Assembly (NCBI RefSeq): GCF_000282595.1
Contig: NZ_AKIZ01000003.1
Coordinates: 124,001-188,000 of the forward strand
Source: Phyllobacterium sp. YR531
Lineage (GTDB): Bacteria; Pseudomonadota; Alphaproteobacteria; Rhizobiales; Rhizobiaceae
Reading direction: 5' to 3'
Length of the DNA: 64,000 nt
In this document: positions 4,214-11,245 of the stretch, one piece after another
Position numbering within the stretch: the stretch's first letter is position 1
Layout of the letters: every line of letters begins with the position of its first letter
Made by a program: the position numbers and the translations under genes
Notes under the pieces: model-generated
What the model saw: the letters and a program-made list of their open reading frames with translations, nothing else
What the model was told of the DNA's origin: nothing
Database searches by the model: none

Positions 4214-4247
4214 ATCACGTAAAGATATAAACATTTCTTTATGTGAT
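4214..4247. promoter_or_regulatory. Large palindrome upstream of the metE promoter, candidate operator
   Basis: Two 12-base arms (ATCACGTAAAGA at 4214-4225 and TCTTTATGTGAT at 4236-4247) form an inverted repeat with one mismatch around a 10-base AT-rich spacer. It ends one base before a TTGACA box, so it sits where an activator or a repressor of metE could bind. The AAAGA/TCTTT half-sites recall the A/T-rich operators of methionine-cycle regulators in alphaproteobacteria, but no specific regulator can be assigned. The leftward SUOX-fold gene (start 4035) could also be affected. Confidence 0.5.
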
Positions 4248-4248
4248 C

Positions 4249-4277
4249 TTGACAATATTTCTCACTTGCCCGAAATT
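4249..4277 (+). promoter_or_regulatory. Probable metE promoter
   Basis: A consensus -35 box, TTGACA (4249-4254), is followed after 17 bases by GAAATT (4272-4277), a modest -10 element. Initiation would fall around 4284-4288, just where the cobalamin riboswitch begins, which supports the placement. Confidence 0.5.
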
Positions 4278-4287
4278 GGTAGCGTCA

Positions 4288-4500
4288 TGGTTCTTTGAGC
4301 GTCTCACAAGATGCATCAGAGCTAAGAGGGAAGCCGGTGCGCAAATGCAATGCCGGAGCTGCCCCCGCAACTGTAAGTGGTGAGCCAACATCCATTATGT
4401 CACTGGAGCAAACCTCTGGGAAGACGGATGAAGGTGTTGACCCACGAGCCAGGAGACCTGCCACGACGAAATAACGTCCACGGGCGGGGTGTCCCGGTGT
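4288..4500 (+). ncRNA. Cobalamin riboswitch in the metE leader
   Basis: All main conserved blocks of the AdoCbl-class cobalamin riboswitch are present in order: GAGGGAAGCCGGTG (4326-4339), GCCGGAGCTGCCCCCGCAAC (4352-4371, the P5/L5 region), CACTGG (4401-4406), CTGGGAAGACG (about 4416-4426) and the B12 box GAGCCAGGAGACCTGCC (4446-4462). A hairpin after the B12 box (CGGG/CCCG, 4481-4496) carries GGGG in its loop, which could pair with the CCCC loop of P5 as in the known L5-L13 kissing interaction. Between it and metE, a CCCC run (about 4560-4563) can pair with the GGGG at 4574-4577, which includes the likely Shine-Dalgarno region. Binding of B12 is expected to shut off metE, probably at translation. 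The fold class is sure; the off-state structure is inferred. Confidence 0.95.
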
Positions 4501-4585
4501 GTCGCAGCAACAGTTCGCGTCTCTGCGCCCTGTTATTGCACGCGTTCGCCAACCCATGCCCCCAACTTATGTCGGGGTTACAACT

Positions 4586-10514: not shown

Positions 10515-10528
10515 CACGCCTGCCCCTG

Positions 10529-10750
10529 CTAAGCGAGTGCGTTGATCATATCCGGGCGGAAACCAGCCCAATGCTGCTCGCCAGCAATTACAACCGGCAC
10601 CTGGCGGTAACCGAGGCTTTGAACCAGTTCAAAAGCATCCGGGTCGCTTGATACATCAATAACGTCATACTCCACGCCGTGACGATCCAAAGCGCGGGTA
10701 GTTGCAGTGCACTGAACACAGGCAGGCTTGCTGTAGACGATAATGCTCAT
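10529..10750 (-). CDS. nrdH: NrdH, glutaredoxin-like electron donor for NrdEF
   Basis: This 73-residue redoxin has the active site CVQC near residue 11 ([19 protein letters not shown]) and the C-terminal [21 protein letters not shown] typical of NrdH, which has a glutaredoxin-like sequence and is usually reduced by thioredoxin reductase. The ATG at 10750 has a strong GAGGAAAA ribosome-binding site; longer in-frame starts would extend into the leader. It is the first gene of nrdHIEF, about 235 bases downstream of a cobalamin riboswitch. Confidence 0.95.
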
Positions 10751-10985
10751 TTTTTCCTCGTATGGCTCTAGTCGTGGGAACATGCCCCGGCAATTGAATT
10801 GCCGCAGGCTCAATAGGTCTGGGAAATGCGTATGAGGGCGTTTACATATCGGACCAAATCCGAACCACTGGCATTCAATGCACTGGAAAGATTGCTCATT
10901 GATATCACCCCGTCACTTGCTTATGGCGAGGTCAGGGGAAGCGGCACGTGCGGCGTCATCGCCTCACATCACGTTCGCAACCCTC

Positions 10986-11205
10986 CCGGCACCCCGCCGG
11001 TGGACTTGTTCGATCGAGGCAGGTCTCCTGGCTTGCGGATCATTGCACCCATTCTACCTTCCCGGCATATCGCGCCAGTGGCATTGTCGAATGAATACTC
11101 GCCGCTTACAGTTGCGGGGGCAGCTCCGGCATTACGGCGCCCTTAAAAGGCACCACTCACCAAATTCCCGTCTTAGCTTCCCAGTCTTGCGAATCGAAAG
11201 AACCT
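10986..11205 (-). ncRNA. Cobalamin riboswitch in the nrdHIEF leader
   Basis: Read leftwards, the conserved blocks of a cobalamin riboswitch are clear: GGGAATTTGGTGAG (about 11157-11170), GCCGGAGCTGCCCCCGCAAC (complement of about 11111-11130), CACTGGC (near 11073-11080) and the B12 box CAAGCCAGGAGACCTGCC (11018-11035). A hairpin just after the B12 box (10986-11000, CCGGC-GGGGT-GCCGG) has GGGG in the loop, complementary to the CCCC loop of P5, the same arrangement as in the metE leader. B12 is expected to repress this class Ib reductase, which is sensible if a B12-dependent class II enzyme exists elsewhere in the genome. The roughly 235 bases between the aptamer and nrdH show no obvious intrinsic terminator, so the output mechanism is open. 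Confidence 0.95.
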
Positions 11206-11208
11206 CGA

Positions 11209-11245
11209 ACACTATATATAGTAGACCAGGTTAAAATTGCGTCAA
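11209..11245 (-). promoter_or_regulatory. nrdHIEF promoter with a NrdR-like box
   Basis: Leftwards, TTGACG (complement of 11240-11245) and ACTATA/TATATA (17-19 bases further on) form a plausible promoter starting near 11205, at the 5' end of the riboswitch. The -10 region lies inside ACACTATATATAGTAG (11209-11224, + strand), which matches the palindromic NrdR box in all but the last two positions. NrdR represses ribonucleotide reductase genes when dATP is high. Only one box is evident, whereas NrdR sites often come in pairs. Confidence 0.6.

Follow-up and report, generated by a model that had tools for sequence, protein, structure and literature searches.

B12 (cobalamin) riboswitches on the genes of B12-independent isozymes were reportedly described by Rodionov in 2003. 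In Streptomyces, nrdABS has a B12 riboswitch and encodes an actinobacterial class I (Ia) ribonucleotide reductase that is off with B12 and is present alongside a class II enzyme; nrdABS is not known to have a metE neighbor. According to the passages of PMC545781, a cobalamin element before a B12-independent ribonucleotide reductase or methionine synthase, in bacteria where the B12-dependent enzyme is also present, had been described previously, and the principle of placing B12 riboswitches on B12-independent isozymes is already published. Clustering of metE with a reductase, a betaine arm, and a leader open reading frame (ORF) do not appear in those passages. The subject of this study is a block of DNA in which metE and the class Ib reductase operon nrdHIEF face each other, each behind a cobalamin riboswitch. 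It lies in a 64-kb stretch (hereafter the window; positions 124001-188000 of contig C3) of the 4,997,302-base genome G000. As in the window, metE of Caulobacter is preceded by an alphaproteobacterial B12 riboswitch, which was measured there as a translational OFF switch; unlike here, metE and btuB are given as the only B12-riboswitch genes of Caulobacter, and the reductase genes have none (passages of PMC6538847).

A literature search, mainly of open texts judged from titles, abstract openings, and passages, returned no work that treats these genes as a cluster or describes a B12 riboswitch of gbcAB, and no paper combining a cobalamin riboswitch, metE, and nrdHIEF. As far as these searches show, recurrent but variable clustering, shared operators with a one-sided riboswitch, a betaine arm, and a relay through a leader ORF have not been described together.

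The original prediction, made from the sequence of the window, held that two complete cobalamin riboswitches point at each other and enclose only five genes, metE and nrdHIEF. The covariance-model scan bore this out, since both aptamers span the whole RF00174 model (positions 1-189), score far above its gathering cut-off of 31.5 bits (Table 1), and are the only two Rfam matches at gathering thresholds across the window. The enclosed genes were named by NCBIfam as MetE, NrdF, NrdE, NrdI, and NrdH, all four proteins of the class Ib operon scoring above the curated cut-offs, and one tiny leader ORF that had not been listed has to be added to them. The genome also encodes the B12-dependent counterparts, a complete MetH (C22:394207-397767) and a complete NrdJ (C23:74149-77946), and neither is found at any of its nine cobalamin riboswitch sites, so that the proposal of B12-independent spare isozymes behind cobalamin riboswitches came through both checks, the covariance-model scan and the search for metH and nrdJ. 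The block probably represents two B12-independent spare enzymes of a choice circuit with two layers. In this plant- or soil-type bacterium, the enzymes that make methionine and DNA precursors without B12 are encoded next to one another, each behind an RNA switch predicted to be OFF with B12.

Table 1. Features of the metE-nrdHIEF block (window coordinates; SD, Shine-Dalgarno sequence; model R1 was built with both of these aptamers included)
Feature	Position	Strand	Evidence
SahR-type 20-bp palindrome in metE promoter region	4225..4244	+	exact match to AYATAAASATNTCTTTATRT
metE cobalamin riboswitch aptamer	4271..4479	+	RF00174 133.8 bits, E 1.7e-33; model R1 157.1 bits at 4289-4462
metE expression platform	4481..4585	+	L13 hairpin 4481-4496, anti-SD C run, SD GGGG 4574-4577
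metE, B12-independent methionine synthase	4586..6925	+	TIGR01371 1119 bits vs cut-off 930, profile 1-753 of 754, full-length
Hairpin between operons, possible two-way terminator	6933..6960	.	8-bp stem AGGAGCCG/CGGCTCCT read from sequence
nrdF	6972..7961	-	TIGR04171 478 bits vs cut-off 355
nrdE, class Ib reductase alpha, start codon uncertain	7978..10131	-	TIGR04170 1280 bits vs cut-off 750
nrdI	10101..10571	-	TIGR00333 168 bits vs cut-off 75
nrdH	10529..10750	-	TIGR02194 107 bits vs cut-off 86
Tiny leader ORF, 29 codons	10810..10899	-	behind riboswitch-controlled SD 10908-10911; stop 59 nt before nrdH
L13 hairpin of nrdH riboswitch, expected partner of loop L5	10986..11000	-	CCGGCGGGGUGCCGG read from sequence
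nrdHIEF cobalamin riboswitch aptamer	11001..11222	-	RF00174 117.1 bits, E 1.1e-28; model R1 145.2 bits at 11018-11204
NrdR-type box overlapping -10 element	11208..11223	-	14/16 to NrdR consensus
nrdH promoter TTGACG-16-TACTAT	11218..11245	-	promoter scan match; similar sequence in listed relatives

The first layer of the proposed circuit would act on the DNA and report demand. An SahR-type operator at metE and metH, and NrdR-type boxes at nrdHIEF and nrdJ, would allow each isozyme pair to be summoned by the same pathway signal. For the methionine pair, the palindrome upstream of metE reads ATATAAACATTTCTTTATGT, and its degenerate form, AYATAAASATNTCTTTATRT, matches the 5 Mb genome exactly at three places, against zero for the reversed control. 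These sites lie before metE, before metH, and before a gene encoding an ArsR-type helix-turn-helix and a methyltransferase, which is followed by a metF-type gene. With up to three mismatches, the palindrome is present in 27 of 29 metE and 9 of 9 metH upstream regions and in none of 91 nrdH upstream regions, a control set that includes loci of other groups. The SahR-type label was assigned by analogy with PMC4239095, whose passages describe a regulon with a 20-bp palindrome, a core of sahR, metH, and metF, and metE as a further member in some genomes. By this analogy, the palindromes at metE, metH, and the putative regulator gene agree with the SahR regulon in type and in members; the pairing of such an operator with the cobalamin riboswitch of metE does not appear in those passages. 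A near-match to the palindrome, with one mismatch, is located at 143899-143918 of contig C16, close to MttB-family genes.

For the reductase pair, each of the 36 chosen nrdH leaders has an NrdR-type box over its -10 element, always at the same place and with scores of 12-15 of 16, and a box of at least 13/16 was found upstream of nrdJ in 19 of the 20 chosen genomes and in that of the window; single-base shuffles of the nrdJ boxes gave p > 0.05 in 2 of these 20 genomes. Both the nrdH leaders and the nrdJ regions were hand-chosen rather than random. A second NrdR box at nrdH was ruled out, as the second-best sites of the 36 leaders reached only 7-11 of 16.

Both isozyme pairs of the window's genome have a type of operator in common, with the riboswitch only on the B12-independent member, and this one-sided switch would form the second layer, in which the RNA makes the choice of cofactor. 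Such a two-layer logic, with the promoter for demand and the RNA for cofactor choice, is clean and testable. The coordinated use of both operons, as first proposed, is retained with regard to B12; since metE and nrdHIEF each carry their own pathway operator, the two should be coordinated in this respect only.

At the RNA level, binding of B12 would cause loop L5 of the aptamer to kiss the downstream L13 hairpin, and the anti-SD C run, thus freed, would cover the SD and stop translation; in the absence of B12, the L13 region would pair with the C run, loosening the hold on the SD. The predicted kissing partners, assigned by sequence only, are the same in both leaders: CCCCCGC for L5 and GGCGGGG for L13. 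The L13 core GGCGGGGUG, complementary to the aptamer L5, is invariant in 26 leaders, which were hand-chosen and not random, and whose alignment, containing one over-long row (L129), was used for its first columns only. For metE, the switch would act on the start codon of the gene itself. GGGG followed by a start codon is found in 31 of 32 metE leader rows, L053 being the exception, and these rows include repeats (the window leader three times, as the window, L002, and L119; L017/L132 and L055/L129 twice). An ATG also lies behind GGGG in all 13 nrdA leaders shown, and the open start codons of these leaders are no proof of the nrdA start. When the metE leader is folded with L13, a helix forms between 4482-4490 and the C-rich strand (4552-4561), and two of the four SD bases remain unpaired; all four are paired in the fold without L13. 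The modeled folds thus appear to shift in the direction expected of a translational OFF switch, agreeing with the exchange only in part, and they are not unusually stable (z -0.71 and -1.66). The nrdH leader of Ensifer sesbaniae (L098/L040, outside the set of 26) has an aptamer of 150 bits and another sequence in place of the L13 hairpin, and this leader may no longer switch.

For nrdHIEF, the switch would act on the tiny leader ORF rather than on the start codon of the first gene, although the nrdH leaders have a platform similar to that of metE. In 50 of 53 distinct riboswitch-nrdH leaders, the SD serves a tiny ORF of 8-29 codons; identical sequences were counted once, and L053, L056, and L076 were excluded because the covariance model has no match before nrdH there. 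The ORF starts 102-133 nucleotides (nt) past the aptamer in 49 of the 50 leaders (at 223 in L044), about as far from it as the metE start, and its stop lies 59-224 nt upstream of nrdH. The same arrangement of SD and ORF is seen in 55 of 58 real loci, identical ones included, as compared with 1.3 on average and at most 6 over 200 shuffles. A conserved leader peptide was ruled out, substitutions at the three codon positions being 52/81/74 in an 11-codon group and 73/123/143 in a 20-codon group. The interval between the ORF and nrdH contains more C than G in 48 of the 50 leaders, a bias that is compatible with Rho binding.

Two relays from the tiny ORF to nrdH seem most likely: ribosomes on the ORF would shield the C-rich leader downstream of it from Rho, or the exposed SD would load ribosomes that restart at nrdH. 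Jointly, Rho protection and ribosome restart are fairly likely, and they are favored over the explanation that survives best among the alternatives, namely that the ORF is a relic. In the latter case, the nrdH riboswitch module would have been copied with another gene's start codon attached, and switching of nrdHIEF would depend on a structure or a termination event unrelated to translation of the ORF. The ATG at about the distance of the metE start and the lack of a conserved peptide fit a relic, but a pure relic should lose its start signal, and therefore the SD and ATG, kept while the codons behind them drift, count against an explanation that we hold to be unlikely. If the relay is true, a tiny ORF without a conserved peptide would be a simple means for a riboswitch to control a distant operon.

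Short ORFs in the leaders of B12 riboswitches are also found in M. tuberculosis, where the passages of PMC11260477 place the upstream ORF (uORF) of metE inside the aptamer, lowering expression, and describe a ppe2 uORF that overlaps the gene; by contrast, the ORF of the nrdH leaders begins past the platform and stops well before nrdH. A further parallel is the SAM-II riboswitch of S. meliloti metA, in which AUG1 precedes the real start and the riboswitch-controlled SD serves a start codon located 74 nt beyond it. This system differs in the riboswitch class (SAM-II), in being in frame, and in having a terminator between the two starts (passages of PMC9373788).

The two operons would adjoin because B12 independence is useful as a set, and related genomes would have assembled such sets in several ways. 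Among 394 genomes of the window's family, MetE was called in 43 (E <= 1e-100) and the class I reductase alpha subunit in 117 (NrdE model, E <= 1e-50, which includes class Ia NrdA). The number of genomes with both is 37, whereas the expected number is about 13 (Fisher p 4e-16, not corrected for relatedness). Within this set, metE and the reductase are at most 10 kb apart in 18 genomes and 17.6 kb apart in a nineteenth; in the remaining 18, they are on different contigs or separated by 110 kb to 2 Mb, and fragmented assemblies may conceal some adjacent pairs. The 37 genomes belong to 22 genera, 13 of which include the 18 clustered genomes. Ten of these are tandem with metE upstream of nrd, four are convergent (G000 and G178 with class Ib, G035 and G131 with class Ia), two are divergent, and two have nrdA upstream of metE. 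The face-to-face arrangement that drew attention to the block is thus real in the window, but it is one of four layouts.

It could be objected that this is ordinary co-location, i.e., that the genes are chance neighbors or descend from one rearranged region, and that the layout is meaningless. In favor of this, the two genes are not within 10 kb of each other in 19 of the 37 genomes, and one and the same convergent block, with a sister MetE, is found in the window and in G178, so that those two are one event. The objection is nevertheless improbable in view of the 18 close pairs, their spread over 13 of 22 genera, the four layouts, and the involvement of both reductase classes; furthermore, the layouts are distributed over several clades of the MetE tree (27 chosen rows), and at least five genomes also have metE, or a MesX/core-MetE-like locus, near gbcAB. 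Selection for the set may instead underlie the clustering, and if this is true, independence from one cofactor would be maintained as a linked gene set and not gene by gene. The least probable alternative is that nrdHIEF serves mainly as a stress or metal-response reductase whose riboswitch merely sets a background level, for although class Ib reductases are in many cases controlled by metals or oxidative stress, the reductase tends to occur where MetE does in the 394 genomes and a riboswitch precedes nrdH in 43 of 80 NrdE-anchored loci.

Several results weigh against the two-layer reading or parts of it. Class Ia nrdA is weaker as regards its operator, the best NrdR-type site scoring 10-13 of 16 in 12 leaders, and for this reason class Ib gives the strongest case for a shared operator. 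Folded with L13, the metE leader keeps the other two of the four SD bases in a weak hairpin, the full platforms fold no better than shuffles (z -0.71 and -0.20), and the window's own nrdH leader shows no L13 exchange in the folds. Three of the 53 riboswitch-nrdH leaders are without the tiny ORF, the peptide shows no coding constraint, and a run of at least five T occurs in 15 of the 50 regions downstream of the ORF, so that another termination signal is possible there. To these must be added the 19 genomes, mentioned above, in which the two genes are not close together.

The count of 43 loci was obtained with a riboswitch model built from 28 aptamers. All of these loci are labeled as alphaproteobacterial except one metagenome-assembled genome labeled Arenimonas (L041). 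The 37 NrdE loci without a riboswitch comprise three of Devosia, two of Pseudochrobactrum, and 32 of other groups (L061-L092). The last were considered as bearers of the same switch and rejected, as these actinobacterial and other loci gave no match to the riboswitch model. In four Arthrobacter loci (L074, L086, L087, and L090), metE lies about 3 kb from nrdE with no cobalamin riboswitch by the model, and something else may account for the clustering there. In Brucella rhizosphaerae (L047, 5664-5847), the nrdH riboswitch scores 83 bits only and lacks the core motif pattern matched by related loci, as if it were decaying.

The description of the block as a compact B12-sparing module holds for its riboswitch-bearing, B12-independent isozymes, but the block is not the whole module, as other riboswitch units exist in the genome. 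Two of them precede a GbcAB-like Rieske betaine monooxygenase and a homocysteine S-methyltransferase family gene (PF02574; L116 5587-7003, contig C35 of G000). Further riboswitches cover genes for B12 synthesis, transport, and cobalt, standing before a BtuB-like receptor, a BtuD-like transporter gene, and an operon with cobF, bluB, and cbtA; the scores of the GbcA-like, BtuB-like, and BtuD-like proteins are below the curated NCBIfam cut-offs. The aptamers of the PF02574 gene and the gbcA-like gene have a common variant core, GCAACGGTA, and perhaps form a lineage separate from the metE and nrd switches.

GbcAB yields dimethylglycine and formaldehyde, and the cobalamin-dependent system MtgBCD acts at the same step; the passages of PMC12478193 present GbcAB and the cobalamin-dependent MtgBCDE as different routes for this step and do not include a B12 riboswitch on gbcAB, the term riboswitch appearing once, in a reference on glycine. 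A close relative of the window's GbcA is present in 180 of the 394 genomes. Among the matches listed, at least 13 genomes have it no more than 10 kb from metE or a class I reductase (13 of 16 candidates picked by eye, the riboswitch scan covering part of the 13). A third riboswitch is present in G035, G131, and G062, where it drives a GbcAB-like pair that is either enclosed by the reductase and methionine synthase genes or adjacent to them; the methionine synthase side in G062 is represented by a MesX gene and a MetE-like C-terminal gene (25% identity). In G033, metE and gbcAB stand face to face with a riboswitch on each, and in G380, nrdAB, metH, gbcAB, and metE are contained in 22 kb (the riboswitch scan here being without the metE end). 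These five are the genomes, at least, in which metE or a MesX/core-MetE-like locus is within about 5 kb of gbcAB. On contig C16 of the window's genome, two MttB-family genes (PF06253) adjoin a stretch that matches the cobalamin-binding region of MetH and reads with two stops across the matched span. The MttB-family genes may be the B12-dependent counterpart of GbcAB, the stretch beside them being at most a candidate for the corrinoid protein.

In G106, contig C1 (L131, 3692-12672) has four same-strand riboswitches, before metE, nrdHIEF, a glutathione-independent formaldehyde dehydrogenase (TIGR02819, 717 bits), and a DUF6925 protein; the riboswitch-controlled dehydrogenase fittingly matches the formaldehyde production by GbcAB. 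In Ensifer adhaerens SD006 (L027, 5543-5869), a metE remnant (residues 253-365, 43% identity) lies just upstream of the nrdH riboswitch, and this set may have lost one member. In L097, L135, L126, and L096, metH adjoins a riboswitch-controlled class I reductase, with a cobF-like gene also in L097, and thus B12-dependent and B12-independent genes can be neighbors.

A broader and more tentative proposal, to which we give slightly less than even chances, is that rhizobial relatives build, break, and rebuild islands of B12 independence composed of metE or core-MetE, a class Ia or Ib reductase, GbcAB, and once a formaldehyde dehydrogenase, as units with their own riboswitch and pathway operator that may be mobile. 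In these islands, nrdHIEF would be switched indirectly, through a "ribosome gate" made of a non-conserved tiny ORF with a conserved SD and start codon. If true, the B12 riboswitch of gbcAB would link betaine use in plant-associated bacteria to the supply of cobalt and B12.

With regard to relatedness, the MetE of the window is sister to that of G178 (support 100/93), which belongs to another genus and has the same convergent layout. The DNA similarity between the two covers 4214-11223, with none found beyond it within the stretches compared, and in G178 an AraC-type regulator gene separates nrdF from metE. For NrdE, the window protein groups as sister with the one from AFS078673, a strain of the same genus (100/97 in a tree of 35 rows); the rows of both trees were hand-chosen and not random. 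No metE was found in the AFS078673 locus within the stretch compared (L013; L120 is apparently the same contig), and nrdHIEF lies there beside genes that resemble the window's genes at 29.8-38.2 and 44.2-45.4 kb. Between P. trifolii and the window, only nrdHIEF and its leader are common within the 20 kb compared by blastn. In the same-genus genomes G063 and G349, metH comes after a riboswitch-bearing class Ia nrdAB, from which it is separated in G063 by a cobF-like gene, and no class I reductase was found in three of eight same-genus genomes. Given these differing loci, the units occupy different sites within one genus.

Further features of the block concern its promoters, its ends, and the start of MetE. 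That each operon has its own promoter holds in part. The nrdH promoter was matched by the scan, which in this region found matches at the chance number (8 against 8.9 expected), and it is conserved in the relatives compared; for metE the same scan gave no match. One shared terminator for both operons is plausible, because the hairpin at 6933-6960 falls inside the 46-bp gap separating the metE and nrdF stop codons, although terminator-like matches in the region were likewise at the chance number (6 found, 8.0 expected). A longer MetE starting at the upstream GTG 4499 was disfavored, since relatives keep a conserved SD immediately before the later start. Two full copies of nrdE, about 94 and about 161 kb apart, respectively, are present on contig C2 of each of G273 and G352.

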